A stretch of DNA of 35,072 nt, taken from assembly GCA_003153335.1 (NCBI GenBank), contig PLYG01000430.1, forward strand, positions 1,094-36,165. Reading direction: 5' to 3'. Position 1 is the stretch's first letter. Each line of letters starts with the position of its first letter. This document shows, in pieces, positions 4,035-33,191 of the stretch. Both the position numbers and the translations under genes were made by a program. The stretch comes from Betaproteobacteria bacterium (GTDB lineage Bacteria; Pseudomonadota; Gammaproteobacteria; Burkholderiales; Casimicrobiaceae). The notes beneath the pieces were generated by a model, which did not search any database, had not been told where the DNA came from, and saw nothing but the letters and a program-made list of their open reading frames with translations.

Positions 4035-4319
4035 CTACGTTGTCGGAGCGCCCCGGCGCGGCGCGAAGGGATGGGCGTTGCGACTGCGCGAAAGGCGGCC
4101 GGCGCGATGGCGGCGCAGAAGAAGAGGGTAGGCGCGGGCCAGCTGAATCACGCCCAAGATCAGGCAGACGAGCGCGAGATCGTAGTTGGCTTGGCCCCGT
4201 TGAAGTCCGTAGGCAAATAACGCGCAAGCCAAGAACAGGCATACGGCCGCCGTGCCCACCGGGTTGCGGGAAAGACGCAAGCGCTGCCGGTGCGCGCGTA
4301 GACGGGATCGCATCATCAT
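4035..4319 (-). CDS. small membrane protein
   Basis: Hydrophobic segments AAVCLFLACALFAYGL and LALVCLILGVIQLARAYPLLL; overlaps the end of the exonuclease ORF. Confidence 0.6.
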   Translation of the reverse strand: MMMRSRLRAHRQRLRLSRNPVGTAAVCLFLACALFAYGLQRGQANYDLALVCLILGVIQLARAYPLLLRRHRAGRLSRSRNAHPFAPRRGAPTT

Positions 4320-5368
4320 GCGGCCTCCTCCAGTTCTGAATACTGAGCGGCTGCCAGCGCCTGCTGCAGTGGGTGCTGATGCGCCGAGAGCGCGCTGTGG
4401 TAGTCGAAGGATGGAACGAATTCGGCTAACCGGCCTGCAGCCTGCTTGAGTTCCAGCTCCCTGAGGATCGCCAACGCCTCCGCGCGGTCGGGGCGATCAA
4501 TCCACAAAAAGGTCGTGGGCTGCAACGGTGGCGACTGGGTCCAATCCATCAACTGGCAATTGCGGTGAAACATGGCGCGCGTCTCGGCGCTCGCCAGTCG
4601 TTGCTGGATCACGCCCTTTGCAGTGTGCTCTCCGCGATCCACGGCGCTCCAGAAGCGTTCTACCGATCCGAACTCAGCCAACAGCTTGGCGGCAGTATGC
4701 AAACCGACGCCGTCCACGCCGCTGATATTGTCGGAAACATCCCCGGCCAGCGCTTTGGCTTGGATAAAGGCTGCTGGCGACTGGTAGCCGAATTTCCCCC
4801 CAGCCGTCGGCAGGTCTGCTTCACCCACCCACCGTGCATTCTCGCCGTGCACATACAACCGTACGTTAGGACCGACGATTTGCAGCCAGTCGCCGTCCTT
4901 CGAAATCGCCGTCACGGGCCCATGGCGCGCGACGCGCGGCGCCAGATGTCCAGCAACGTCGTCCGCCTCCTCGTCTACAGCAATTATCTGCGGCATGCCC
5001 AATCGATGCCACAACCCGCGCAGGACCGGCACCTGCTGCCGAAAGGCTTCCTTCATCGCGAGGTGGTCGGGATCGACGGAGCGCTGCTTGTAGTCCGGAT
5101 AGAGGTCGTAGCGCCACTGCGCGCGGCCAGCCCAGAGCAGCACCGGCAGTAACCGGTGGTCTGGATATTCGTTCTGCACCGTGTGCAATGCAAAGAGCAA
5201 TGAATCGACCATCCCGTGAACTGCGCCGTTGGGAAACCCGGCCTTGGTGTGCCATGCACGATGGCGCCGCTCGCTGCGCAGTTTCGGCGGGTAGTGCCGG
5301 GCCGCCGCCGTCATTCCCATGGAGTTGGCATCGATCAACACCGTATGTTGAATCCTGCGAGCGCTCAC
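4316..5368 (-). CDS. 5'-3' exonuclease (FEN/PolA N-terminal-like flap nuclease)
   Basis: GTG start; VLIDANSMGM, LLPVLLWAGRAQWRYDLYPDYKQR, VDEEADDVAGHLAP, VTAISKDGDWLQIV, LAGDVSDNISGVDGVGLHTAAKLLAEFGSVE (H3TH). Confidence 0.85.
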   Translation of the reverse strand: MSARRIQHTVLIDANSMGMTAAARHYPPKLRSERRHRAWHTKAGFPNGAVHGMVDSLLFALHTVQNEYPDHRLLPVLLWAGRAQWRYDLYPDYKQRSVDPDHLAMKEAFRQQVPVLRGLWHRLGMPQIIAVDEEADDVAGHLAPRVARHGPVTAISKDGDWLQIVGPNVRLYVHGENARWVGEADLPTAGGKFGYQSPAAFIQAKALAGDVSDNISGVDGVGLHTAAKLLAEFGSVERFWSAVDRGEHTAKGVIQQRLASAETRAMFHRNCQLMDWTQSPPLQPTTFLWIDRPDRAEALAILRELELKQAAGRLAEFVPSFDYHSALSAHQHPLQQALAAAQYSELEEAA

Positions 5369-5697
5369 GAGCCCACCTTGCGCATCAGCCACGTCCGTCT
5401 CTGGTGAGCGGCGAGCCGTGCTCGTTCGGCCTCGAATGCGCGCCAGCAAAGCAGTGCGCGCTGGAATTCCGCCACACCGAACACCGCGCACAGGGAAAAG
5501 CACGTCCCGGCCAGGATTGGTTCCGCCACCGCCAACACGTCGATCCAGATCGCGCACCCGCCGAAGAGTACAAGGCTGCGCTGCAGGTGGCCGCGTCCAT
5601 CGCGCTGCTGGGCGCGATAGTCCATGGCGAACACCTCCTCGCCCGCCACGGAGCGGGGGGCAAACACAAGCGCAAAGGTTGAGGGTTGGTCAGTCAT
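5365..5697 (-). CDS. small predicted membrane protein
   Basis: MTDQPSTFALVFAPR... with hydrophobic segments; GTGA-type overlap with the downstream exonuclease start. Confidence 0.55.
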   Translation of the reverse strand: MTDQPSTFALVFAPRSVAGEEVFAMDYRAQQRDGRGHLQRSLVLFGGCAIWIDVLAVAEPILAGTCFSLCAVFGVAEFQRALLCWRAFEAERARLAAHQRRTWLMRKVGS

Positions 5698-14898: not shown

Positions 14899-15020
14899 GC
14901 CGATCTCCACTGGTCGCGCACATAGCGCGCAGACCATTCATGCCCACAGTCGGTACTGCAGACGATGACGATATTGCTTTGATGCAAGCGCGCCCAATCA
15001 CCCCATACGAACTTGTTCAT
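14895..15020 (-). CDS. 41-aa small protein
   Basis: MNKFVWGDWARLHQSNIVIVCSTDCGHEWSARYVRDQWRSA; overlapping ATGA with the next ORF. Confidence 0.5.
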   Translation of the reverse strand: MNKFVWGDWARLHQSNIVIVCSTDCGHEWSARYVRDQWRSA

Positions 15021-15235
15021 TTGTTCTCCACGTTGAGCCCTGCGCGGCCGGAGCCGGAGCCCCAGCGCGAAGTTGGTCAGCCCGCCGGCCGGTCCATCGC
15101 CGGCCGGCCGGCCTTTCCCGCCCCTCGCTCCGGGCAACAAGCTCACGCAATGAGCCAAGAGAGGCGGAAGATATTTCAATCTTTCACCCAAAGTATGAAA
15201 GTTTTGCACTATTCTGTCCCATATTCCAAATAGTG

Positions 15236-15409
15236 ATGATTCGCATAGCATGGATTACAGTCACAGCCGCGATCATAGTGATCATGGAGGTAGTCGCCTA
15301 CCTGAAGACCACCGAGCGGACGGCTTACCACTTGGTCGCCGATCGGCAGATTCCCGCCTTCAAGGTTGAGAAGAGTTGGCGGATCTTGTACAAAGACTTC
15401 GAAGCGTGA
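15236..15409 (+). CDS. excisionase/AlpA-type HTH protein (HTH_17-like), C-terminally shortened
   Basis: VVAYLKTTERTAYHLVADRQIPAFKVEKSWRILYKDFEA-stop; same frame continues IRQKLAIGAEPSSLPGEQF to a TAG at 15467. Confidence 0.7.
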   Translation: MIRIAWITVTAAIIVIMEVVAYLKTTERTAYHLVADRQIPAFKVEKSWRILYKDFEA

Positions 15410-15480
15410 ATTCGGCAGAAGTTGGCCATTGGCGCCGAGCCTTCATCGCTGCCAGGCGAGCAGTTTTAGGGGGTTGAGCG

Positions 15481-18400
15481 ATGCAGTCAGTGATTGGTTC
15501 GGTACCCTTGGAACGCATCCATGTGCCGCGCGTTGGCATGCTCGCCACGGTGCGCAATCGGCGCGGGGTCATCTCAGCGGTAGAGCCTTTCGCTGCGTCC
15601 AAGACCTCCGAACTGCTCCACCTGGTCACAATCGAGTTCAGCGATTCCGACGGCGACGCCGAAGAAACGCTGCTCTGGGAGCGCGAGCGTCAGCCGGTGG
15701 TTCTCGAGCCCAATGCCCTTCCACGCGCCGGCGTCGATGCGCCGATGCGCATGCGGGAGTTCCTCGCTCTCCAGCGTGCGACCCGCTGGACTGCCATCAC
15801 GCCGTTCCTGGCTGCGGATTCAGCCGCGCGGCGCAGCGAACTGGTGCCCACCGCACCGGTCTACGGCGCCGTCAGCGCCGATGACTTTCAGCTCGTTCCC
15901 TTGGCACGCGCGATGCGCATGCCCCGGGTCTCGCTTTTGTTGGCCGACGATGTCGGGCTGGGCAAGACGGTCGAGGCGGGCCTAATCCTGGCCGAACTGG
16001 TGCGCAAGCGCCGCATCCGGCGTGTCCTGATCTTGACGCCGGCTTCGCTGCGCACCCAGTGGCAACAGGAAATGGAAGACAAGTTCTCCCTCGGCTTCGA
16101 TATCGTTGACAAGGCGGCCACCCACAAACTGCAGAAGGAAATGGGTCTCGACGCGAACCCTTGGCGCGCGCTGCCCAGAATCATCACGTCATATCACTAT
16201 CTGCGCCAGCCGGACGTGCTGGAGCAGTTCATCGCCAATTGCCGCACGACCCACTCCCACCAGGGTGCGCAATTGCCATGGGATCTGCTGATCGTTGACG
16301 AAGCGCACAACCTCATGCCGTCGAACTTCGGCGAGGACAGCGACCTCGCCGAGATGTTGCGGCTGTTGACCCCTTGGTTCGAGCACCGGCTCTTTCTGAC
16401 CGCCACGCCGCACAACGGTCACACGCGGTGCTTCTCCGGGCTGCTGGAGCAGCTTGACCCGGTGCGGTTCACGCGCACGCCAGGGTTCACGGACAAAGAG
16501 CGCCAGATGATCGGCGACGTGCTGATCCGCCGGCTGAAGAGTGAGATCAACACACAGGACAAGGAGGCCGGGCGACCGCCGCGGTTTGCCACCCGCTACC
16601 TAGAGCCACTGCCGCTGTACCTGCCCAAGGCAGAAAAGGAACTGGCAATGGCGGTGCGGGCCTTCTGTGTTGCGCTCAAGCGCCAAATCATTGCCGCGCC
16701 CGAAGCGCGGACCGTCCTCAACTTCGCTATTGAAGTGCTGCGCAAGCGTTTGCTTTCCTGTTCCGTCACCTTCGCCGACAGCTGGCTCCGTTTCAAGGCG
16801 GGCTTGGCGGAAAGGGAGGCCACGCAGACCAGCGAAGTACTGGCTGCGCGGCGGGCATTGCAGGAGGACATCGACGACGATCAGGAGCGCGAAAGCCGCA
16901 ACCTGCACGCCAACCACGTAGTGGGTGCGTGGATGTATCCCTACTTGGGAGCTCTGGCCGAAAGCGTGGCAGCCGTAGACGCCGCCCTCCGCGCTTTGAA
17001 GCTGGATCAGCTTCCCGTGGTCAGCAAGGTGCCGACGGTCGACGCCCGTTTTGATCGCCTGAAGGATCTAGTCAAGCAGCGCTTGCGCAACGCAGAGGCG
17101 TGGAACCGCGACGAGCGGTTGATCGTCTTCACCGAATACAAGACCACCCTGGATTATGTAGTTAAGCGGTTAGAGGGCGAGTTCGGTGCAGACAGTGGCG
17201 CCATCATCCAGCTCTACGGCGGCATGAGCGATGAAGACCGCGAGCGCATCAAGTTCGCCTTTAACGACCCCGATTCGCCAGTGCGGATCCTGGTGGCCAC
17301 CGATGCTGCGTCAGAGGGGTTGAACCTCCAGCACACGGCGCGGTTGCTGATGCACTTCGAAATTCCCTGGAATCCGTCGCGCTTGGAGCAGCGCAACGGC
17401 CGCGTTGACCGCTATGGCCAGTCGTCCGACGTAACGATCTACCACTTCGCCAGCGACGATGACGCCGACTTGGCCTTCGTCGCCCGCGTCCTGGAAAAGG
17501 TCAACGACATCCGCGAAGACCTCGGCTCCGTCGGTGAGCTCTTCGATGCCGCTTTCCAGCGGCGGATGATGGAGTTCAACGAAGACAAAGAGGTTTTTGC
17601 CGAACTTGAGCGCGAAATCAGCACGCGCAAGCGATCATCAGATGACGCCCGGGTGCACACCCAAGAGCGAGGGACCGGAGACCGCGCCCGGTTTGAGCAA
17701 CTGCTAGTCGATCTGGACCTCAGCCCTGTGACGCTGCAGGAAACCTTGCGCATCGCTTTGGGCTTGGGCTCAGCCCAAGTGCCACTGGAAGGTCCCGACG
17801 CAAGGGGCCGCATGCGACTTCGGTCACCCCTGCCATCTCGCTGGCAGGCCGTAGTGGATGATAGCCTCCGGCTGCGAGCGAACAAAGGTGTCACCGGTTC
17901 GATGCCTTGGCTGGTCTTCGACAACCAATTCTTCATCCACACGATCAACGGCCGCCCGGTGTTCCGCCCGTCGATGGACACCGTGCTGCTCCACTTGGGG
18001 CACCCCGTCATGCGACACGCGTTGGCCTCGTTCGCCCGCCTGCGCTTTCCCGGCGGCCAGAGCGAGTTCACACCTCCAAGCCGCTGGGTGGTCACTCGCG
18101 GCGCGGTGCCGGCCGGCGCCGACGCGTTGCTGCTGCTCACTGTGGAAGAGATGGCCGTCAACGAACTGCGCGAGACCTTTCACCACTGGGTGCGAACTGT
18201 AGTCTTGCCCATCAACGGCGGCGTGCTCGGTGATGCGTTGGCCTACACCGGCCCCCATGGCGCAGCGCAGCCAGGTGTCGAGGATGCCAGCGGCGTGCCA
18301 GAGGCGCGAGCTATCTGGGACGACGTCGACGACGATGTTCGCACCTGGATCAACAGCTACCGAACCCGATTGACCGAGACGATTACCACCGAGCTCAAAG

Positions 18401-18762
18401 CGGCGGGGGTCGAGGCTGCGGCGCATGAGAAGGAAGCCTTCGAGCGCCGGATCCGGGAGGTGTCAGCACTTCAGCGCGACCAGAGCATCGACAAACTCAA
18501 GCGAGAGATCGAAGAGCAGCGCACGGCCGCCTTGCAGTATTCGCTGCTTGAAGATGCCAACGAGCTGGCTGAACGTCGGCTGCGCGACCTGCAAGACGAA
18601 CTCAAGCGCCGACAAGGGCAGTTTGGCGATCTACTGGAACGGCTCCAGCAAGAGCGCGATCGCATATTGCAGCACGTGCAGCCCCTTCGGTTCAGCCTCC
18701 GGTCCACAGCGCAGGTTTTCCCGGTCACGGTGGAAATCCGGCTCCCGGGGGCGCAGGCATGA
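15481..18762 (+). CDS. SNF2/RapA-type helicase, DrmD-like
   Basis: LLADDVGLGKTVEAGLILAEL (Walker A), LLIVDEAHNL (DEAH), LFLTATPHNG, VRILVATDAASEGLNLQ, EQRNGRVDRYGQ. Confidence 0.93.
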   Translation: MQSVIGSVPLERIHVPRVGMLATVRNRRGVISAVEPFAASKTSELLHLVTIEFSDSDGDAEETLLWERERQPVVLEPNALPRAGVDAPMRMREFLALQRATRWTAITPFLAADSAARRSELVPTAPVYGAVSADDFQLVPLARAMRMPRVSLLLADDVGLGKTVEAGLILAELVRKRRIRRVLILTPASLRTQWQQEMEDKFSLGFDIVDKAATHKLQKEMGLDANPWRALPRIITSYHYLRQPDVLEQFIANCRTTHSHQGAQLPWDLLIVDEAHNLMPSNFGEDSDLAEMLRLLTPWFEHRLFLTATPHNGHTRCFSGLLEQLDPVRFTRTPGFTDKERQMIGDVLIRRLKSEINTQDKEAGRPPRFATRYLEPLPLYLPKAEKELAMAVRAFCVALKRQIIAAPEARTVLNFAIEVLRKRLLSCSVTFADSWLRFKAGLAEREATQTSEVLAARRALQEDIDDDQERESRNLHANHVVGAWMYPYLGALAESVAAVDAALRALKLDQLPVVSKVPTVDARFDRLKDLVKQRLRNAEAWNRDERLIVFTEYKTTLDYVVKRLEGEFGADSGAIIQLYGGMSDEDRERIKFAFNDPDSPVRILVATDAASEGLNLQHTARLLMHFEIPWNPSRLEQRNGRVDRYGQSSDVTIYHFASDDDADLAFVARVLEKVNDIREDLGSVGELFDAAFQRRMMEFNEDKEVFAELEREISTRKRSSDDARVHTQERGTGDRARFEQLLVDLDLSPVTLQETLRIALGLGSAQVPLEGPDARGRMRLRSPLPSRWQAVVDDSLRLRANKGVTGSMPWLVFDNQFFIHTINGRPVFRPSMDTVLLHLGHPVMRHALASFARLRFPGGQSEFTPPSRWVVTRGAVPAGADALLLLTVEEMAVNELRETFHHWVRTVVLPINGGVLGDALAYTGPHGAAQPGVEDASGVPEARAIWDDVDDDVRTWINSYRTRLTETITTELKAAGVEAAAHEKEAFERRIREVSALQRDQSIDKLKREIEEQRTAALQYSLLEDANELAERRLRDLQDELKRRQGQFGDLLERLQQERDRILQHVQPLRFSLRSTAQVFPVTVEIRLPGAQA

Positions 18763-21700
18763 ACAACAAGATCGAGTGGTGGAGCAGCCTCAACCATGGC
18801 GGGCTGCTGATATCCCCCGACAAGATCGCCACGGTCTTTGCTACCGAATTGCCGGCGCTGCCCATGTGGGAAGGCGACAAGCTGCGCCGCGCACTCACGG
18901 CGTTTGATGGTACCAATGAGCGCCTGAGCGCCTTGCTCGACTTCATGCTACATGACCTGTCGGCCTTGCCCGATGGTGAATGGCAGAAGGCGCAAGGCGT
19001 GGATGCGCGTTGGACCCTGCGCAGCTTCACCGGCGCGCTGGTTAAGCCGCGGCGGCTCTGGCAAGGGCCCCAGGGCGAAGTGCTGCCCGTGTTCGTGCCC
19101 GACGAGGGCGCGTCGCGCCAATTCGCCGGCCGCCTGGGCGTCGGCCGCTCGCGCCAATTACTGAGCCGAGCGGTGGAGTGGTTGCGTCAGAAGCAGCAGC
19201 CGCTGGCGCTGGTGACGAACGGGCGCCAGTGGCGCCTGGTGCATGCCGGCCAGGACTACGAAGCCTGGTGCGAGTGGGACATCGACCTGTGGTTCGTGGA
19301 AGGTCTGCCCGGACCGCAAGTCATGGCGTGGCGGCACCTGTTGTCCCGTGATGCTTTGGTTGCACCCAACGCGAAGAGCGAAAGCAGCTTGTTGGGTGCC
19401 ATGCTGGCCTCGCGGAAGGGTCAGGCCGATCTGTCGGCCGTGCTGGGCGAGCGTGTCCGCCAGGGTGTGGAAGAGCTGATCACTGCATCATACAGCGCCA
19501 TCGAGCAAGCCCAGCAAGCGGGCACCGCGCCCGCCTTTACTGACCTGTATGTGGCCGGCTCGCGCATCGTGATGCGCTGCATCATCACGCTGTTCGCCGA
19601 GGCCCGAAACCTGCTGCCGGTTGACAACCCGATCTACCAGCGCGCCTACAGTCTGGAAGGCCTGCGACAAAGTTTGGACCGCCGTGCCAGCGGCCGCGGA
19701 AACGAGCGCCTGGCCCAAGGCCGCAGTGCCTGGCCCAGGCTGATTGCGCTGTTCGGTCTGGTCTATCACGGCTCATCGCACGAAGCCATGCCGGTGCCAC
19801 AATATAGCGGTGGCCTTTTCGAGCCGGGTGATCCACAGTCGCAGGACGGTATCTCGCGTGCACTCGCGCTGCTGGAAAGCCCGGGCAACGCCATCACCGA
19901 CCGCCAGGTTCAGCACATGCTCCGCCTGCTGACGCGCACGCGTCTACGGGTGCGGCAGGGCCGCAAGAACACGTTGGTGGATGCGCCGGTGGATTTCTCG
20001 GCCCTCTCATCCGAGTACATCGGCATCCTGTATGAAGGCCTTCTGGACTTCGAGTTGAAGCAGGCTGCCGAAAACGACCCGGTGGTGTTCCTAGCGGTGG
20101 GCAACGAGCCCGCCTTGACGCTGTCGCAGCTAGAGGGCATGGACGACGCCGTCATCAAGCAGCTCTTCGAAGCGCTGAAAGAGAAGGACAAACCAGAAGC
20201 CGGCGAGGACGATGCTGGCGGCGAGGAGTCCGAAGTAGCAGAAGCGCTCGACGAGTCGAACGATGCGAACATCGCGGACGAATCGGATGAATCTGATGTG
20301 GAGGCAGAGGTCGTCGACCCAGACGAGGATCTGGCCCTCAGCCCCGACCACCTGGCGCGAGCCCAGACGTGGCTGGAAAGAGCGGCAGTTCTGGCCGGCC
20401 TGGTCAAGAAGCCGCGCGGCCGCAAGGCCGGCGACGGTGCAGACGACGCCGAAGCCTTGGCCAAGGCCGCCAAGCAACTGTGTGCACGCCTCGTGGCGCC
20501 CGGCCAATTCTTCCTGGTGCGCTGGGGCGGCACGCGCAAAGGCGCTGGTACCTTCTATACCCGCCCGCAACTGGCGGCGCCCACCGTGCGCCGGACGTTG
20601 GAGCCGCTGGCCTACAATGCGGTCCGCACCGCGGTGGATGCCCGCACTGGCCTGGACATCGTGGTGGAGTGGGTTCCCAAGCGCCCCGAGGCAATCCTGG
20701 CCTTGAAGGTCTGCGACTGCGCGATGGGCTCGGGCTCGTTCCTTGCCGGCGCCCTTCGGTATCTGACCGATGCGCTGGTGGCATCGCTGTACCACCACAA
20801 GCTGATCGAACGCGCAGAAAATGGCGGCGTGCCGCGCATGGCCGATGGCCAAATTTCAGAGGTGCTGAGCGACGAGCTTCTGAAGCTCAACCCCGCACAT
20901 GAAAGCTTTGAAGAAGCGCTGCGCGCCCAACTCAAGCGCCACATCGTGGAGCGCTGCCTGTACGGGGTCGACCTGGACCCATTGGCGGTCGAGCTTGGCC
21001 GCATGACCCTGTGGGTCGAGACCATGGATCGGGACTTGCCCTTCGGCTTCCTGGACCACAAGCTCAAGGTGGGCAACTCATTAGTAGGCGCCTGGTTCGA
21101 TATCTACCGCGACTATCCCGCAATGGCGTGGAAACGCGAAGGCGGTGACAAGGACTACCAGAAGGACAAGCCCGGCAACCTGGTCAACCACTTCTACGTC
21201 AACGCCAAAGGCAAGAAGCTCGGCGACAAGTTCACTGCGGCCATCAACAGTCGGGGTAAGGCGGTGCCTGACCAACTGCAAACGCAGATCACTGGTCAGC
21301 TGAGCCTAGGTGAGGCGATGGAAGCCAGCGACGTGCATGACGAGTTACTGAATGTGTTCCGCGCGCTGCACCGCTTGCCGGTCCATGACAGCGACAAGCG
21401 CGCAGCAATGTACCGCAATGAGGTGCTGAACAACCCGCACTACCACACGCTCAAGGCTCGCATGGATCTTTGGTGCGCATTATGGTTCTGGCCCGGTGAG
21501 CAGATCGACCTGGCGCCGCTGCCATTCGATTTCGCGCAGCCGAAGGACGCGGCACTGACCCTGGCCCAAGACTTGGCGCAGCAGCACCGCTTCTTCCACT
21601 GGGAGTTGGAGTTTCCGGATGTATTCAGTGCTGGGCAGTCTGGCTTTGACGCCATGCTGGGCAACCCGCCGTGGGAGACCATGCAGCCCAACTCCAAAGA

Positions 21701-23825
21701 GTTCTTCTCCAATCACGATCCTTTATACCGCGCTTACGGGAAGCAAGACGCGCTGGCAAAGCAAGTTGAGTACTTCAGTTTGTGGCCACAGATTGAGGCC
21801 GACTGGATCAACTATATTGCGGGGTTCAAATACTTCGCCAACTGGATGAACTACGCTGGCGCAGCCTTTGGGGACCGAATCGAGGTCGATAGGGATGGCA
21901 AAAAGAAGCATGATCTGAACCTCGGCGGTCGAGGCAAGAATAGCTTTGTCGAATCAGCCCAACTGCACCAAAAGTGGCAGCAGCGACGTCGTAAGCGGAA
22001 GGGCTTTTCCGATGTGTCACACCCCTTTGTGCACCAAGGCAGCGGTAAACCATACCTCCAGAAAATGTTCTTGGAACTGAGCCACGCACTGCTGAGACCA
22101 CAAGGCCGCATGGGCATGATTGTGCCAAGTAGCGTCTACACAGACAAGGGTGCGAAGGCATTGCGCGAATTGTTCCTGGATCATTGTGACTGGGAATGGC
22201 TGTTTGTCTTTGAAAACCGAGAGGCCATTTTTGAGATCCACCGATCCTTTAAGTTTGGTCCCCTTATTGCGCAGAAAGGCGGCACAACTCAATCTATCCG
22301 CGTAGCGTTCATGCGGCGGAACGTCGACGATTGGGCACGGGCGGAGCAACATGCTTTGAGCTACCGGCGAGAGCAGGTGCTTGAATTTTCACCATACTCG
22401 AAGGCAATTCTGGAAATTCGTAGTGAACAAGACCTCCGCGTGCTGCAAAAGGTCTACGCGAATGGTGTCCTGCTGGGCGACCAGAGTACCCATGGCTGGG
22501 GCATCAAGTACCAGCAGGGCGATTTCAACATGACTTCGGATTCCAAACTGTTCCCTGCGCGGTCGAAGTGGGAGGTGCAGGGTTACCACTCGGACGAGTA
22601 CGGCTACTGGTTGAAGGGTGCTTGGCGAGACTACAACGGCCCAGCGCACATTCTGGATCGAGAACCCGGACTGGTGCTATCACGGGATGGCTCGCGTGCT
22701 ATATGCGCGGCTGATATTGAGAGCGTAGCGTTGCCACTAATGCAAGGGGTAGGCATTTGGCAGTTTGACACTTGTGCGAAGGAGTATCTCTCCGGCGCCA
22801 ATCATCGAGCTAAGTGGACTCATGCAAGCTTTTCAGAGTGCCGCCTTCCGAGCCCTCAGTTTCTGATGAACGCCGTGGACTATGTTTCCAATCCTAAAGC
22901 ATCAAGAGGCTCGAACCTTGTCTTCAGAGCAGTACAGAATGCCGCCAATCAGCGCACGTTTATCGCGTCGATATCACCGTTCTGTCCAACTGGAAATTCG
23001 CTGGCGATGCTTAATGTAGAGAAAGGACGTGACGCGCTGATCGCTCGGTGCAATGCATTTGTGGCGGACTACGTACTGCGCCCAAGAATGAGTCAGGCAA
23101 ATCTGAATTGGTTTGTAGTCGCGGAAATGCCCGTACTGCCAGTCCAGACGGCCAAAGTGGAGAGATACATATCGTCTGCGGTCCGTGCACTCCTATTTAC
23201 CGGAAAGACGCACGCGGGTGAATGGGCACAACGAGCAGACCGTTCATGGCGGCGCTCTTGGGCGGTCACACCTCATGAGCGCTTGCGTGTGCGCGCAATG
23301 CTTGATGCGGTCATCGCTAGTGCAATGGGTCTCGACTTGACGGACTACAAATGGGTGCTTCGAGATGCTGACTACCCGGTTGCTCGCTTGGCCGATCGTC
23401 AGTTCTGCGACGGCTTGGACACCAAAGGTTTCTGGCGAGTCGATCGAGAGTCTGATCCTGAACTTCGTCACACAGTCCTATCCTTGGTCGCCTTCAGCGA
23501 CCTCGATCGGGTTGGTCTTGACGAGTTCGTCGGTCAGAATGACGGCGAAGGGTGGTTCGTCCCGGATTCCGTGCGTTTGACTGAATACGGTTTGGGGCAT
23601 GACGATCGCGCGAAGGTGCATCAGCCGGTGGCATCGCGTCTGGGGCCGCGCTTCCACCATTGGCAGTTAGGGGAAGACACCGAACGCTCTTGGCAGGAAT
23701 GCGCCGCACACGCGGATCTGATACGACGAATTGTCGAGCTGCATTATTCAGCAGATGAAAGTGGCGGCAGTTTGCCCGTCGCTGCAGAGGGACCGACTGA
23801 CTACAAGCATGGAGGCTTGTTCTAA
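18759..23825 (+). CDS. large N6-adenine DNA methyltransferase (Eco57I/PglX/DrmMI-like)
   Basis: VCDCAMGSGSFLAGALRYL (SAM motif I) and MLGNPPWE (NPPW motif); N-terminal TNGRQWRL region; 4-bp overlap with the helicase gene. Confidence 0.92.
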   Translation: MNNKIEWWSSLNHGGLLISPDKIATVFATELPALPMWEGDKLRRALTAFDGTNERLSALLDFMLHDLSALPDGEWQKAQGVDARWTLRSFTGALVKPRRLWQGPQGEVLPVFVPDEGASRQFAGRLGVGRSRQLLSRAVEWLRQKQQPLALVTNGRQWRLVHAGQDYEAWCEWDIDLWFVEGLPGPQVMAWRHLLSRDALVAPNAKSESSLLGAMLASRKGQADLSAVLGERVRQGVEELITASYSAIEQAQQAGTAPAFTDLYVAGSRIVMRCIITLFAEARNLLPVDNPIYQRAYSLEGLRQSLDRRASGRGNERLAQGRSAWPRLIALFGLVYHGSSHEAMPVPQYSGGLFEPGDPQSQDGISRALALLESPGNAITDRQVQHMLRLLTRTRLRVRQGRKNTLVDAPVDFSALSSEYIGILYEGLLDFELKQAAENDPVVFLAVGNEPALTLSQLEGMDDAVIKQLFEALKEKDKPEAGEDDAGGEESEVAEALDESNDANIADESDESDVEAEVVDPDEDLALSPDHLARAQTWLERAAVLAGLVKKPRGRKAGDGADDAEALAKAAKQLCARLVAPGQFFLVRWGGTRKGAGTFYTRPQLAAPTVRRTLEPLAYNAVRTAVDARTGLDIVVEWVPKRPEAILALKVCDCAMGSGSFLAGALRYLTDALVASLYHHKLIERAENGGVPRMADGQISEVLSDELLKLNPAHESFEEALRAQLKRHIVERCLYGVDLDPLAVELGRMTLWVETMDRDLPFGFLDHKLKVGNSLVGAWFDIYRDYPAMAWKREGGDKDYQKDKPGNLVNHFYVNAKGKKLGDKFTAAINSRGKAVPDQLQTQITGQLSLGEAMEASDVHDELLNVFRALHRLPVHDSDKRAAMYRNEVLNNPHYHTLKARMDLWCALWFWPGEQIDLAPLPFDFAQPKDAALTLAQDLAQQHRFFHWELEFPDVFSAGQSGFDAMLGNPPWETMQPNSKEFFSNHDPLYRAYGKQDALAKQVEYFSLWPQIEADWINYIAGFKYFANWMNYAGAAFGDRIEVDRDGKKKHDLNLGGRGKNSFVESAQLHQKWQQRRRKRKGFSDVSHPFVHQGSGKPYLQKMFLELSHALLRPQGRMGMIVPSSVYTDKGAKALRELFLDHCDWEWLFVFENREAIFEIHRSFKFGPLIAQKGGTTQSIRVAFMRRNVDDWARAEQHALSYRREQVLEFSPYSKAILEIRSEQDLRVLQKVYANGVLLGDQSTHGWGIKYQQGDFNMTSDSKLFPARSKWEVQGYHSDEYGYWLKGAWRDYNGPAHILDREPGLVLSRDGSRAICAADIESVALPLMQGVGIWQFDTCAKEYLSGANHRAKWTHASFSECRLPSPQFLMNAVDYVSNPKASRGSNLVFRAVQNAANQRTFIASISPFCPTGNSLAMLNVEKGRDALIARCNAFVADYVLRPRMSQANLNWFVVAEMPVLPVQTAKVERYISSAVRALLFTGKTHAGEWAQRADRSWRRSWAVTPHERLRVRAMLDAVIASAMGLDLTDYKWVLRDADYPVARLADRQFCDGLDTKGFWRVDRESDPELRHTVLSLVAFSDLDRVGLDEFVGQNDGEGWFVPDSVRLTEYGLGHDDRAKVHQPVASRLGPRFHHWQLGEDTERSWQECAAHADLIRRIVELHYSADESGGSLPVAAEGPTDYKHGGLF

Positions 23826-26800
23826 TGCTGAACCCCATCACCTACACCGAGCAGGTGGTCGGCGACTTTCTACGCTACCAGCTCAGCACCTACGCCTTCG
23901 CCGATGCGGGGCTGTACCAGCAGATGCGCGGACTGCTAAACCTGGAGCAGACGCGCAACACACCGCTGATGAAGGGGCCTTTCATCTCGCTGTCGCGCAC
24001 GTTCCAGCAAGGTGCCACGCTAGAGCAATTGGTCAACGATGGCGTGCTGCACCCGCACATCCGGCAGTTGTCGCCGTTCCCGTCGGTGTACCAGCATCAA
24101 GACAAGGCCATTCGCGCTATCCGCGCTGGCCAACCGACGCTCGTAGCCACTGGCACCGGCTCGGGTAAGACTGAGTGCTTCCTGCTGCCGATCATCAGCC
24201 GTTGCCTTCAGCTGCGGGACGATTCGGCGCCGGCCGGCATCACCGCCGTCATCGTCTACCCGATGAACGCGCTGGCCGAAGACCAGTTGCAGCGCATGCG
24301 GGCGCTGCTGGCCGGCACGGGCGTCAGCTTCGGCATGTACGTGGGCAAGACTCCGCGCCGCGAGGCCGATGTGACCGGCGTGCGCCTGCCGCCCGGTAGC
24401 ACCGCAGCCGACTACAAGGCCAAACTAGCCAACATGCAGCAGAAGAAGGAAGACCGAGCGCTGCATCCGGCGGAAGAGCGGGCCAGCCGCGAGGCGATGC
24501 GCAAACCGGGCAACCAGCCACGCATCCTGCTGACGAATGTGAAGCAGCTGGAGCTGCTGCTGACGCGCCAGCAAGACCTGGAGCTGTTCGATAGTGCACT
24601 CCTCGAATTCCTGGTGTTCGACGAGGCACATACGTTCACCGGCGCCCAAGGCGCAGAGACGGCGTGCCTGATTCGGCGTTTGCGCGCCTATTGCGGCAAG
24701 AACGAAGCCAGCACGGCTTGCATCGCCACATCGGCCACCATCGCCGACCCGGTGAACGGGTTGGAGGCCGGGCGCGACTTCGCCAGTCGGTTCTTCGGTG
24801 TAGATAGCAGTAAAGTGGTGCTGGTGGGCGAGTCATACGAGAACGACCTTTGGGGCACACCACGCAAGGCCAGCCCACGGTTAAACGGTGACCAGGCGCT
24901 CCAGTTGCAGACCTTGCTGGAAGTGCTAAGCCAGGTAGACCGTGACGCTGCCAGCGACGCAGCAGTGCAGGCGCTACGCGTCTGGTTTCAGTCGGCCACT
25001 GGCGACCGCTTGCCAGCCGGCAACTGGCGCGAAGCGATTTGCCAGTGGCTAAGTCACAACGAGGTGGTTTTCCAGATCGGCGAGGCGCTGCGCAAGCCGC
25101 GCAGGCTGCAGGACCTTCTGACCAGCCTGGGCGCATCGTTGGGACGGCCGATCTCCCAGGAAGAGATTCTGGTCTGGCTGGCCCTAGGGGCTGCTTCTCG
25201 CCAGGGCGGGCGACCGCTGTTGCGCCCAGTGGTACACGGCTTTGTGCGCGGCGTGAGCGGCGCGGTGGTGACGTTCCCGGAACAAAGCAAAGACGCCAAG
25301 CTGTGGCTATCCTCCGAAGATGCGCTGGCTATTGACGCCGAACTTCACCGCTTTCCGTTGCTCAGTTGCACCACCTGTGGCCAACACTACTTCGAGCACG
25401 GACTAGAAGATTTCAACTTTATCGGTCCCAAGCCTGGCGGCGGTAGCGCTGAGGGCGCCGGGCGGGTCTGGCGCGGCACCGAGATCAACTTGGGCGGTAT
25501 TCGGGCCCTGTCACTAGATCACCAAGTGGGCGCAGAGGCCGAAGACGACCCGGTGCGTACCGAGACTCTGTTTGCCTGCCGGTACTGCGGCACGGTGCAT
25601 GACAGTAACCTGGTCGATTGCGTGGGATGCGGACGTAACAACGTGCTCAAGCCGCTGTACTTCGTGCAACAGAAGGAAGAGCACAAGGGGAAGTTGACAC
25701 GATGTGTGTCCTGCAGCGCCGCCGGTCGCCGATTCAGCGGCAACTACCGCGAGCCTGCGCGCCCAGTGCGGGCCACCACGGTGGCCGACGTGCACGTGCT
25801 GGCTCAAAGCATGATTCACCGCGCCGAACGGCGGCGCCTCCTTGTATTCGCCGACAACCGGCAGGACGCTGCCTTTCAGGCGGGGTGGATGCAAGACCGC
25901 TCGCGCCGCTATCGGCTGCGTGAGTTGATCTACCAGAAGCTGAAGCAAGGACCGGTCTCCGTCAGCGACCTGACACTGTGGCTAGACCAACACCTGGACG
26001 CTGATGACGAATTGTCGCGGGCGCTGATCCCGGAGGTCTGGCGCGTAGAGCCCAAGTCGGAAACCGGCCAGGGCCACGGCCAGGAGCGGAAGTGGTTCTT
26101 GCGAGTACAGATCCTGCGCGAGCTGGCGGTGGGTGGGCGGCAGCGCGTGGGCCTCGAACCGATTGGCCGGATGAAAGTGGATTACCTAGGCCTCACCGCG
26201 GACAGGCCTGAACTGGCGCCTTGGGCGACCAGGCTGGGGTGCGAGCCGAAGGCCTTGGCCGAGGGCGTAGCTTCGCTGCTGGACGCGGCCCGGTCCCGGC
26301 GCATGGTGTACGACAGCATCACAAACGTCTATTCCAAGGTCTGGATGGACGGCGAGCTGCAGGTGATGCGCGGCTACCTGCCGTCGATGAAAGGCGTGCC
26401 TGCCGCGCTGAAGTTCCAGCGCGATGGGCAGGATGACGAGGGCCGCATCAAGCAGTGGTACAGCAACTACAGCACGGTTGCCAAGCAGGCTGCGGTGGCT
26501 TGGGGTGTCGCTCCCGATGAGGTGAGGCCCTTCCTCGAGGACATGTGGAGGCTGGTGACGGATGAGCTGCACCTGTTGGCTCCCGTGCAGCTGAAGGGCG
26601 CCCGAGGCGGACTGCTCCCTGGTTGTATCGGCGCACATCAGGTGGACGCGAACCGACTGACACTGCGGCCGGACAGAGGCATGCACCGGTGCCAGACTTG
26701 TCGCCGGCTACATGCACGCATCAACCCCGGCATGACCTGCATGGCCTGGCGCTGCGGCGGCAAACTGGTCTTCGAGGCCGAGAACCCCGATGACTACGAC

Positions 26801-29227
26801 TTGCTACTGCTGGACCAGGAATTCGCCATGCTGCGGGCGAAGGAGCATTCGGCGCAGATCCCCAGCGCAGAACGCGAGCGGATCGAGAACGCCTTCAAGA
26901 GCGACGGCGAACGCATAAACACGCTGGTGTGTACACCCACGCTGGAGATGGGTGTGAACATCGGGGCGCTGGATGCTGTGCTGATGCGCAACGTGCCGCC
27001 GCTGCCCGCCAACTACTGGCAGCGCGCCGGGCGGGCGGGGCGGCAGTTCCGCATGGCGCTGGACATCACCTATGCGCGGGCGGCGAGCCACGACCGGGCC
27101 TATTTCAACGAGCCGCTGAAAATGCTGGAAGGCCTGGTGGAGCCACCCAGTTTTAACCTCCGTAACCCGGTGATGGTAGCCAAGCACGTGCATGCCACGG
27201 TGTTAACGGCACTGTTCAAGCTGCTGCGCGAGAAGGCACTGCCGCAAGCGGAGCTGGACGTCCTGCAAGGCGCGATGCGGGCCTGCCTGCCACCGCAGAT
27301 CAAAACATTCTTGTTTACACTCGAAGGCCTGGTGCGCTCAGCGCCGATGAAGCTGACGGAACTGACCTCGGTTGTTCGGCAACATCGCGCGATCCTGATC
27401 GCTGCCGTGCTGGCTGCCTTCAAGCAAGGATGGCCCGAGGCCGACGCTGACGTGGTCAGCACGGAGCGAGTCTCAGGCATTATCGACAACCTGTCCGAAG
27501 AACTGCAGACCGTTATCGGCCGCTTGTTCCGGCGACTGCAATGGGCATTAGGGCAACTGGAGCGTCTGCGCAAGGTGGCCGAGGCCAAGGGTTCGATGGA
27601 CCCCGACGAGGAAGCACTGCGCAGCCGCTGCGAACGACTGGTCAAGAAGCTGAAGGGCGAGGCCCGGCGCCGCTCCAACCAGGCCGAAGGCGTAGATGAG
27701 ACTAATACCTACGGTGTGCTGGCTGCGGAGGGGTTCTTGCCAGGATATGGGTTGGACACTGGAGCGGTGAGCATTACGCATATCGCCCCGCGCTTCGGAT
27801 CGGACATCTCCGACTGGGAACTGCGGCGCAACAGCGCGCTGGCCGTTCGTGAGTACGTGCCCGGCAACCTGATTTACGCGAACGCGCACAAGTTTGTGCC
27901 GCGCACCTTCCACCTGATTCCTGAAGAGCCCATCGTCTTCGCGGTGGATCTGGCCAATGAGTCCATTCAAGAGACCGGCGGCTTGGCGCAGCCGACGGCG
28001 CCGACGCAGACCGAGGCCTTGGGATCGGCCAGAATATTCGGCGTGCAGGTCTGTGACGTGGACGCGCCGCACCAGTCCTACATCTCGGACGATGAGGACT
28101 ACCGATTCCAGTTGCCAGTAGCAGTTTTCGGTCAAGACCAGGGGCGGCATTCAGGAGGCCCGGCTTACGAGTGGGGCAAGGCCGTGCTACACCTAAAGCA
28201 CGGACTACACATGCGGCTGGTGAACGTGGGGGCGGCCTCGCAGGTAAAGGCGCACGGAGAGATGGGCTACCCCGTATGCCTGGTGTGTGGCCAAAGCCGG
28301 TCGCCAATGAGCACGCTGAAGGAGCTGGACTCGTTCAACGAGCATCATATAGACCGATGTGGCCGCCCGATCCAGAAGATCGCCTTCTATGCGGAGGCTG
28401 TGGCCGATGCGCTTGTGCTGCCGGATTGCTCGTCCAAAGAGGCAGCGTACAGCGTCATGGAGGCACTGCGCCAGGGGGCGGCCGAAGTGCTGGACATGGA
28501 AATCTCAGACCTGCAGGTGCAGGTGTTGGGCAAGCCCGGATCGGAGACCTACGACGCGCTTCTGTACGACCCGATGCCAGGTGGATCGGGCCTACTGGAG
28601 CAGATGATCGGACACTGGCCGGCGGTCATTCAGCGTGCACTGAGTCTGGTGGAAAACTGCCCGTCAGCCTGCGAGACTTCGTGCGTTGACTGTCTGCAGC
28701 ACTTCCGCAATTCGTTCTATCACTCCGAATTGAATCGGCATACTGCCCAGAACTACCTGCGCGAGTGGGGCAACGCCGTGAGCCTCAGCCACGTGATTCC
28801 GGCCGTGCTGCCGGACGACACTCAGACCCAGAAACCGGGGAATCCGCCCGAGCAACAGCTGGTGGCCATGCTCAAAGCAGCGGGGTTGGTCAACTTCGAG
28901 ACGGAGAAGCCCATCGCGCTGTCGGGCGGAGTCACCACTCGCCCTGACGTCTACTTCCATGCACCCAATGACCAGTACGATGGCGTGTGCGTGTACCTGG
29001 ATGGCATGAGCGAGCACTTGCATGGCAACGCGCAGACGGCCGCCAAGGACCGGCAGATTCGTGATGAACTGAGAAACACCGACTTCGAGGTCGTTGCGAT
29101 CCAGTACCAGGAGCTCTATGACAAGACGGCCATGCGGACCCACATGCGCCGCATTGCGAAGGCAGTTGCTGGCAAGTCCAAAGCCAAGGAAGTCGAGGCG
29201 AGCGACACCTGGTTTGATGCTTCCTGA
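23825..29227 (+). CDS. DEAH helicase with DUF1998/zinc modules and C-terminal VSR/DUF559-like nuclease-like domain
   Basis: LVATGTGSGKTECFLLPII, FLVFDEAHTF, CIATSATI, LVCTPTLEMGVNIGALDAVLMRNVPPLPANYWQRAGRAGR, several CxxC pairs, NCPSACETSCVDCLQHFRN (DUF1998), C-terminal RPDVYFHAPNDQYDGVCVYLDG...KDRQIRDELRNTDFEVV. Confidence 0.9.
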   Translation: MLNPITYTEQVVGDFLRYQLSTYAFADAGLYQQMRGLLNLEQTRNTPLMKGPFISLSRTFQQGATLEQLVNDGVLHPHIRQLSPFPSVYQHQDKAIRAIRAGQPTLVATGTGSGKTECFLLPIISRCLQLRDDSAPAGITAVIVYPMNALAEDQLQRMRALLAGTGVSFGMYVGKTPRREADVTGVRLPPGSTAADYKAKLANMQQKKEDRALHPAEERASREAMRKPGNQPRILLTNVKQLELLLTRQQDLELFDSALLEFLVFDEAHTFTGAQGAETACLIRRLRAYCGKNEASTACIATSATIADPVNGLEAGRDFASRFFGVDSSKVVLVGESYENDLWGTPRKASPRLNGDQALQLQTLLEVLSQVDRDAASDAAVQALRVWFQSATGDRLPAGNWREAICQWLSHNEVVFQIGEALRKPRRLQDLLTSLGASLGRPISQEEILVWLALGAASRQGGRPLLRPVVHGFVRGVSGAVVTFPEQSKDAKLWLSSEDALAIDAELHRFPLLSCTTCGQHYFEHGLEDFNFIGPKPGGGSAEGAGRVWRGTEINLGGIRALSLDHQVGAEAEDDPVRTETLFACRYCGTVHDSNLVDCVGCGRNNVLKPLYFVQQKEEHKGKLTRCVSCSAAGRRFSGNYREPARPVRATTVADVHVLAQSMIHRAERRRLLVFADNRQDAAFQAGWMQDRSRRYRLRELIYQKLKQGPVSVSDLTLWLDQHLDADDELSRALIPEVWRVEPKSETGQGHGQERKWFLRVQILRELAVGGRQRVGLEPIGRMKVDYLGLTADRPELAPWATRLGCEPKALAEGVASLLDAARSRRMVYDSITNVYSKVWMDGELQVMRGYLPSMKGVPAALKFQRDGQDDEGRIKQWYSNYSTVAKQAAVAWGVAPDEVRPFLEDMWRLVTDELHLLAPVQLKGARGGLLPGCIGAHQVDANRLTLRPDRGMHRCQTCRRLHARINPGMTCMAWRCGGKLVFEAENPDDYDLLLLDQEFAMLRAKEHSAQIPSAERERIENAFKSDGERINTLVCTPTLEMGVNIGALDAVLMRNVPPLPANYWQRAGRAGRQFRMALDITYARAASHDRAYFNEPLKMLEGLVEPPSFNLRNPVMVAKHVHATVLTALFKLLREKALPQAELDVLQGAMRACLPPQIKTFLFTLEGLVRSAPMKLTELTSVVRQHRAILIAAVLAAFKQGWPEADADVVSTERVSGIIDNLSEELQTVIGRLFRRLQWALGQLERLRKVAEAKGSMDPDEEALRSRCERLVKKLKGEARRRSNQAEGVDETNTYGVLAAEGFLPGYGLDTGAVSITHIAPRFGSDISDWELRRNSALAVREYVPGNLIYANAHKFVPRTFHLIPEEPIVFAVDLANESIQETGGLAQPTAPTQTEALGSARIFGVQVCDVDAPHQSYISDDEDYRFQLPVAVFGQDQGRHSGGPAYEWGKAVLHLKHGLHMRLVNVGAASQVKAHGEMGYPVCLVCGQSRSPMSTLKELDSFNEHHIDRCGRPIQKIAFYAEAVADALVLPDCSSKEAAYSVMEALRQGAAEVLDMEISDLQVQVLGKPGSETYDALLYDPMPGGSGLLEQMIGHWPAVIQRALSLVENCPSACETSCVDCLQHFRNSFYHSELNRHTAQNYLREWGNAVSLSHVIPAVLPDDTQTQKPGNPPEQQLVAMLKAAGLVNFETEKPIALSGGVTTRPDVYFHAPNDQYDGVCVYLDGMSEHLHGNAQTAAKDRQIRDELRNTDFEVVAIQYQELYDKTAMRTHMRRIAKAVAGKSKAKEVEASDTWFDAS

Positions 29228-29274: not shown

Positions 29275-29979
29275 GTGAAGCAAGTCGGGGTTGACGGGTG
29301 TCATGCTGGCTGGATCGCTGTCTCCGATACGGTCGACGGTCTGACATATTGTATCCACCCGACCTTTGAGGATCTGCTCGATTCATGGTCGTCTGCGCAG
29401 AAGATACTAGTCGACATTCCTATAGGCTTACCTGCTCGAAGGATCCCTGTTCGCCAGTGCGACATGCAAGCGAGAAGGGTCTTGGGACCGAGGGCTTCAA
29501 GTGTCTTCACGCCACCATCGCGCAGCGCTTCCAGAGCCCAGAGCATAGAAGTGGCGCGCGAGCTAAACCTGACCGAGGTCCACCGCAGCCTTTCGGCTCA
29601 AGCATGGGGAATTTGCAGAAAGATCGCCGAAGTCGATCAAGCTCTGCTGGCTCATCGCAGGGCCCGGGAGGCAGTGATGGAGGTCCACCCGGAGGTGTGC
29701 TTCTGGTCACTAGCTGGCAGTGCACCGATGAATCATGCCAAACGCACAGCTGCCGGCCAGCGAGAGCGCCTTCAATTGCTCCAGCGATGGGAGGCGCATT
29801 CAGCTGAACTCCTGGGTTCCATCATGGCAAACCATAGGCGCCGCGATGTTCAGGCCGACGACGTGCTCGATGCGTTGGTGGCACGCCTCGGGGCACTCGG
29901 GACCGGCCGATGGCGACCCCCTTGGGGTGCCCGGCGGGGCGCCCTGCGAGAAAAGTGGTGCCTGGTAGGAGCTTCTTGA
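29275..29979 (+). CDS. DUF429 family protein (RNase H-like fold predicted)
   Basis: VGVDGCHAGWIAV, ILVDIPIGLPA, RQCDMQARRVLGPRASSVFTPPSR, SAQAWGICRKIAEVD, EVHPEVCFWSLAG. Confidence 0.88.
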   Translation: MKQVGVDGCHAGWIAVSDTVDGLTYCIHPTFEDLLDSWSSAQKILVDIPIGLPARRIPVRQCDMQARRVLGPRASSVFTPPSRSASRAQSIEVARELNLTEVHRSLSAQAWGICRKIAEVDQALLAHRRAREAVMEVHPEVCFWSLAGSAPMNHAKRTAAGQRERLQLLQRWEAHSAELLGSIMANHRRRDVQADDVLDALVARLGALGTGRWRPPWGARRGALREKWCLVGAS

Positions 29980-31064: not shown

Positions 31065-31289
31065 ATGAAAAAGCCCAAGCCCAAGAGCGCGCGTGCCCGA
31101 GTGGCAGCAAATGTTCTGCGATTGAGAAGTGAGCGGGAATTAAGTCAGGAAGCGCTAGCGGAAGCGGCTGACTTTCACCGCACGTACGTGAGTCAGCTTG
31201 AGCGACGCGTGACCAACATCACGGTCGATAATCTTGAGCGGCTGGCTGTGGCACTACGCGTCGACATAATCGAATTGCTGCGCGACTAA
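31065..31289 (+). CDS. XRE-family HTH transcriptional regulator (74 aa)
   Basis: VAANVLRLRSERELSQEALAEAADFHRTYVSQLERRVTNITVDNLERLAVALRVDIIELL. Confidence 0.92.
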   Translation: MKKPKPKSARARVAANVLRLRSERELSQEALAEAADFHRTYVSQLERRVTNITVDNLERLAVALRVDIIELLRD

Positions 31290-32308: not shown

Positions 32309-32581
32309 ATGAACTCGAATGAACTTCTCCAACTCTTCGCCGTCATCAGCGGTTTCGTCGGCAGCTACTTGGTCATCAAGCGAAAGGTCTCGGCCTTCTA
32401 CTGGTGGCTGGCTTCCAACGCGGCATTGATGGTGATCCAGTACGTCTTGGGCGCCTACATGCTAATCGCCCTTTACGCCGCATATTCGGTAATGAACGTT
32501 TACGGTATCTGTGAGTGGAGAAAGGCGGCGCGGCAAGGCCAGTCGCCCACCGCCGACACGGTTATCGGCCCCGGAATATAA
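32309..32581 (+). CDS. 3-TM PnuC-like small membrane protein (90 aa)
   Basis: LLQLFAVISGFVGSYLVIKRKVSAFYWWLASNAALMVIQYVLGAYMLIALYAAYSVMNVYGICEWRKA, PnuC-like repeat ending. Confidence 0.6.
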   Translation: MNSNELLQLFAVISGFVGSYLVIKRKVSAFYWWLASNAALMVIQYVLGAYMLIALYAAYSVMNVYGICEWRKAARQGQSPTADTVIGPGI

Positions 32582-32606
32582 GACCCGAAATCAAGGACTC
32601 GCTTTC

Positions 32607-33191
32607 ATGACACCCGAACTGGAAAAACGCGACAAAGAACTGCACGCACTGGTGCGGCCTCTCAACAAGGCGCGCTACACCGTCGATGTGGGTTTTGGGT
32701 ATGTCGAGAAATGGCTGGCCGACCTCGACCGTGACTATGGTCGCGGCAGCGCGGGCGGCTTGGAGCTTGACCCGGACTACCAACGAGGGCACGTTTGGCT
32801 TCCCGAGCAACGCTCGCGCTTCATGGAATATCTCCTGCGCGGAGGCAGCGCAAACCTGCAGCTTCAGTGGAATCATCCGTTGTGGAATGAGCAGAACGTG
32901 GTCACCGACTTGCCGCACCAGATGCAATTGGTTGACGGCAAACAGCGACTGGAGACGATCCGCCGCTTCATGCGCGGAGAAGTGCTGGCCTTCGGGCTTC
33001 CGGTTACGTCGTTTATCGGTACCAGCTTCGATCCTAATCGTTTGGGAACTTTCCGCATCAGCATGAACGTGCACAGCATCACCTTGCGCGCCGAGCTGCT
33101 CAAGTTCTATCTCGCCCTCAACGAAGGCGGCGTGGTGCATACCGCCGATGAGTTGGCGCGGGTGCACAAGTTGCTGAAGGCGGTATCGTGA
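32607..33191 (+). CDS. DUF262-family protein (ParB/Srx-like fold), single domain
   Basis: LELDPDYQRGHVWLPEQRSRFMEYLLRGG...MQLVDGKQRLETIRRFMRGEV. Confidence 0.8.
   Translation: MTPELEKRDKELHALVRPLNKARYTVDVGFGYVEKWLADLDRDYGRGSAGGLELDPDYQRGHVWLPEQRSRFMEYLLRGGSANLQLQWNHPLWNEQNVVTDLPHQMQLVDGKQRLETIRRFMRGEVLAFGLPVTSFIGTSFDPNRLGTFRISMNVHSITLRAELLKFYLALNEGGVVHTADELARVHKLLKAVS

Follow-up and report, generated by a model that had tools for sequence, protein, structure and literature searches.

A probable decaying MAD1-like leader gene and a conserved upstream block at the head of an ARMADA-type operon

ARMADA operons are described as encoding a BrxHII/RapA-like helicase, a PglX-like methyltransferase and a YprA-like helicase that itself carries an MZB/DUF1998 region, and the fourth gene of Type II, armD, as encoding a GajB-like helicase with a RelE-like domain (PMC12458937). 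The part of that description available to us makes no mention of an HTH leader, whereas the operon analyzed here has one, most probably in decay.

The best curated match of this leader open reading frame (ORF) and of its intact homologues is MAD1 of MADS (NF047737, methylation-associated defense system HTH protein), another small HTH protein at the head of a defence operon. The differences are that the copy studied here is interrupted and falls below the family cut-off, and that the operon behind it is of the ARMADA and not the MADS type.

Two further comparisons concern function and fold. RptR, the small leader protein of a type I restriction island, is a repressor of its own promoter, where it binds repeats at the −10 region (PMC12255303); it resembles the MAD1-like leaders in being encoded by a small leader gene and in the autorepression that may, by analogy, be proposed for them. 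However, RptR belongs to no known regulator class by sequence and its site is TAGCTA (PMC12255303); as a different protein, it was rejected as a member of the same family. Structure comparison placed the predicted model of the leader (built from an alignment from which three rows derived from plasmid records were left out) among MerR-like winged-helix proteins such as BldC, RacA and phage Xis (PDB 6ama, 5i44 and 4j2n), although these are only 9–19% identical to it and have other roles. A search by sequence among solved structures gave weak matches only.

The ARMADA-type operon

The features identified in the window (the whole stretch of 35,072 nucleotides that was analyzed) are summarized in Table 1. 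The same three genes as in ARMADA are present together in one operon, in the order armA-armB-armC, and the YprA-like helicase encoded by armC carries its own fused MZB (DUF1998-type) region (PF09369 at residues 1546-1624), which fits an ARMADA-type operon. The gene found directly after armC differs from that of Type II, since it encodes a DUF429 protein and not ArmD; the operon therefore represents either Type I in reversed gene order or Type II lacking ArmD.

PADLOC and NCBIfam label the first operon gene DrmD, and armA reaches 623 bits with the DrmD-type helicase model (NF038317, cut-off 610), a feature common to DISARM and ARMADA. DISARM class 1 was considered as a name for the operon and rejected, because DISARM class 1 needs separate DrmA and DrmB (DUF1998) genes and DrmC, whereas in this case a single gene encodes both the helicase and the MZB domain; neither a separate DrmB nor a PLD gene was found between positions 15481 and 29979. 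The context is not that of MADS either, as armB scored 23.1 bits against a MAD2 cut-off of 720.

The operon is intact, conserved and under strong purifying selection; between armA and its relative in Caballeronia arationis (L002; L numbers designate the loci compared) dN was 0.051 and dS 1.18 (dN/dS approx. 0.04). Since the similarity to this relative begins at position 15523, the 15th codon of armA as annotated, and the ATG of L003 sits at the matching place, the true start of armA may be GTG 15523 instead of ATG 15481. E. coli genomes contained no match to armA, and viral contigs none to armA or to the leader. An armA relative on a Synechocystis plasmid (L039, 8001-11216) is annotated as several fragments, suggesting that this copy is broken.

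Table 1. Features of the leader region and the operon (window coordinates)
Feature	Position	Strand	Remarks
Promoter/operator-like conserved block GAAAGTTTTGCACTATTCTGTC	15197..15218	+	22 bp; 75 nt upstream of residue 13 in the HTH ORF
Open part of the probably decayed MAD1-like HTH_17 leader, 57 codons	15236..15409	+	Begins at an unusual ATG further upstream, ends with the TGA
ATA at the usual ATG start position of the leader (M + 8 residues + I)	15245..15247	+	Alignment; same frame as the HTH
In-frame TGA at the near-invariant third-helix Trp	15407..15409	+	Homologue columns and predicted helix
Leader tail, formerly coding	15410..15469	+	Ends at the next stop, TAG 15467-15469
armA, BrxHII/RapA-like (DrmD-like) SNF2 helicase	15481..18762	+	Ends in TGA
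armB, large Eco57I-type N6-adenine methyltransferase	18759..23825	+	
armC, YprA/DruE-like helicase fused to an MZB zinc-binding domain	23825..29227	+	
DUF429 protein gene, 3′ of armC	29275..29979	+	

The leader and its lesions

The frame at positions 15236-15469 translates as MIRIAWITVTAAIIVIMEVVAYLKTTERTAYHLVADRQIPAFKVEKSWRILYKDFEA, a stop, IRQKLAIGAEPSSLPGEQF and a second stop. In a preliminary description of this DNA it was read as an HTH_17 frame in which an in-frame TGA takes the place of a Trp codon and KVE replaces the common KVG. Both stops are present as described, and the frame belongs to HTH_17 (PF12728, cut-off 27 bits), scoring 31.9 bits when cut at the TGA and 40.6 bits when the TGA is read as Trp. 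Even with the stop read as Trp it reached 56.7 bits with the MAD1 model (NF047737), for which the cut-off is 80 and for which two intact relatives scored 81.4 and 88.1 bits.

Homologues were obtained from a plasmid collection and from searches across approx. 1,200 genomes; they were collected by similarity to the window leader itself, and the comparison is therefore biased in its favour. The TGA column is occupied by Trp in all 23 intact homologues of the first set and in 60 of the 64 of an enlarged, non-redundant set (three have Leu and one has Tyr), and the Gly corresponding to the Glu of KVE is present in 23/23, which bears out both of these earlier readings. A stop at a Trp codon, produced by one transition, is the expected kind of nonsense change and no striking coincidence. 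The view that coding character continues beyond the TGA holds in so far as 19 codons are open, but the support that this gives is weak, because such a run is expected by chance in approx. 40% of cases and because, past the conserved Ile59, neither the sequence nor the length of the tail is kept within the family.

The leader has lost its conserved start position, the conserved Trp (to TGA) and several near-invariant residues. Leaders of four loci (L015, L006, L027 and L014) start with ATG exactly 27 nt before residue 13, where the window has ATA; an alternative in-frame ATG, placed 9 nt upstream of the ATA, could replace the lost start. Residues 13-57, with the stop excluded, scored 58.9 bits against a profile of the intact homologues, and the leave-one-out scores of the 64 intact homologues were 75.3–99.7 bits (median 93.6). 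At columns conserved in at least 80% of the homologues we counted seven departures in the window leader and at most five (mostly 0–2) in intact copies. Five changes (T15V, R32H, G45E, G46K and F50I) were absent from all intact copies.

The leader has also evolved under relaxed constraint at the protein level. Codon position 3 holds 0.42 of the nucleotide differences between the window leader and its 12 nearest relatives, compared with 0.55 ± 0.05 in 1138 homologue pairs (not independent of one another) of equal divergence. G-to-A and C-to-T substitutions make up ten of the 20 window changes at clade-conserved sites.

We consider it probable (roughly 0.85) that the ORF is a pseudogene in decay, derived from the gene of a small regulator of the MerR/excisionase fold that belonged to the MAD1-like leader family. 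The nonsense-inactivated regulator proposed in the preliminary description is supported, and the case is stronger than a single stop would make it, since the damage extends to several other conserved positions; the TGA is one among several lesions and not the sole basis of this reading. The closest homologue of the window leader is only approx. 53% identical to it, which leaves some room for a diverged functional subfamily.

That the TGA is an error of sequencing or assembly, the gene being intact, is unlikely. The window comes from a fragmented assembly (583 contigs, 68.7% complete), and a base error is possible for the single TGA base; however, 4,500 neighbouring codons are open, the domain lies outside the range of intact copies even when the stop is left out of the score (58.9 bits, compared with 75.3 or more), and the five never-seen changes at conserved columns, like the relaxed codon-position pattern, would stand. 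The combined lesions are those of a decaying gene, and a base error at the TGA would therefore not rescue the leader.

A very unlikely alternative is that the leader is a short and diverged regulator, still functional, whose natural end comes before the third helix is complete. The 57-residue product does pass the HTH_17 cut-off, but protein-level constraint is relaxed, and none of the 74 homologues with an uninterrupted domain ends at the TGA position (the shortest tail past this column is 5 residues). In the predicted structure the third helix comprises residues 52-65 (14 residues) and the stop cuts it after residue 57, six residues in, so that the truncation would take away most of this helix and, with it, the near-invariant Trp and Ile.

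A TGA with A as the next base is a comparatively leaky stop context. This context and the 19 open codons are what favours readthrough, in which Trp or some other amino acid would be inserted and a little full-length regulator made. This earlier suggestion is now barely tenable, as TGA is an ordinary stop in the same operon (it ends both armC and armA, in the latter case overlapping the start of armB), the tRNAs read included none with a UCA anticodon, no tRNA-Sec scored above the cut-off, no relative has a stop at the TGA column, and other conserved residues of the leader are lost too. The phase-like switch that was also suggested found no backing: neither a second allele nor a supporting structure was seen.

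Other interrupted leaders, carrying in-frame stops or frameshifted ends, occur in relatives: L006 (1501-1653), L008 (1501-1632) and L014 (13974-14168), and also L026 and L066. In L006 the SNF2 frame that follows is also cut, after 157 codons; in the case of L014 the genes after the decayed leader look intact.

The upstream block and the leader family

The block located upstream of the window leader is identical at 21 of 22 positions to the clade form, GAAAATTTTGCACTATTCTGTC. This sequence or close forms of it were found 73–82 nt before residue 13 of the leaders of L044 (no differences), L006 and L050 (one each), L015 and L042 (two each) and L045 (three), while the coding identity between the window leader and the loci that share the block is just 0.53–0.64. 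None of 323 control segments of 150 nt contained the block with six or fewer mismatches; shuffled controls match 12–16 of the 22 positions and real upstream regions 16–21. The block is present in a single copy in the genome at up to three mismatches.

The block contains TATTCT, which could be a −10 element. A scan of positions 14950-15600 with the sigma-70 consensus found no promoter, and it is therefore conservation and position that suggest a promoter or operator role for the block. Taken alone, the window leader is one more regulator pseudogene; a kept block beside a gene in decay indicates that retaining the block is of value to the operon. Through this contrast, the operator hypothesis for the leader family becomes testable. 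Other clades of leaders carry other upstream blocks, e.g. CCAATTTTCCCATATTCTCTC, each clade having its own.

MAD1-like HTH_17 leaders (L012, L013, L015-L035 and L042-L088) head many different operons of the defence type, among them type I and III restriction, SNF2, DUF499, UvrD and Hsp70 operons. The first downstream genes, scanned for 61 leaders (in overlapping categories), included 20 N6 methyltransferases of type I systems, 16 ResIII, 12 SNF2, five UvrD, four DUF499 and four Hsp70 genes. A downstream ORF of at least 150 codons is present after 70 leaders; in 51 cases it lies no more than 30 nt away, the commonest arrangement being an overlap of 4 or 1 nt.

This family-wide distribution and the testable operator idea bear on how defence operons are regulated. 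None of the literature searched treats the leader family as a general regulator of defence operons; as the MADS paper lay outside that search, the family-wide rule is put forward as a lead and not as a claim of novelty.

In the preliminary description the ORF was taken for the leader gene of the operon, but the nearest relatives of the operon have no such leader. A profile search detected none near armA in four other ARMADA-type loci (L002, L003, L004 and L037), and the block was not found upstream of armA in these loci or in L039. The clade members sharing the block head SNF2 and DUF499 operons. A search of plasmid records at the DNA level gave no match to the window leader. Given the relatives without a leader and the point (15523) at which similarity to them begins, the leader looks captured and then lost; leader and promoter were probably joined, near the start of armA, to the ARMADA operon from another defence operon.

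A possible course of events can be outlined. The leader and its promoter would have been acquired from another defence operon and fused near the start of armA. Intact leaders of the family may, by analogy with RptR, bind the upstream block and thereby repress their own promoter. Once the repressor was dead, and given that no other copy was found, transcription of the operon from the kept promoter would be constitutive; translation of armA would begin at its own start, the coupling to the leader being gone.

A derepressed operon, as already proposed in the preliminary description, is plausible by this analogy because the upstream block persists and the incomplete genome yielded no further leader copy: no second member of the family scored above noise in the 68.7% complete assembly, from which another copy may be missing. 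More tentatively, and with the odds somewhat against it, MAD1-like leaders and their clade-specific blocks might form a portable promoter-repressor cassette passed among unrelated defence operons, which this ARMADA operon would have captured, keeping the promoter and letting the repressor die, with constitutive defence as the outcome.

Neighbouring genes on the contig

Downstream of the operon, the window contains a gene (32511-33191) for a protein with a GmrSD N-terminal (DUF262) domain, possibly a further defence gene, and a small HTH_3 regulator (31065-31289) similar in size to the controller proteins of restriction systems.

Further downstream, the contig of the window (L135) carries a tRNA-Ser gene (L135 6308-6398) and four consecutive tRNA genes (Pro, Val, Ile and Met; L135 18508-19100). 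The tRNA genes adjoin genes for an RNA ligase and an HNH protein, and a 5′-3′ exonuclease gene is located at window positions 4316-5557. Taken together, these genes suggest a mobile element with a tRNA array.
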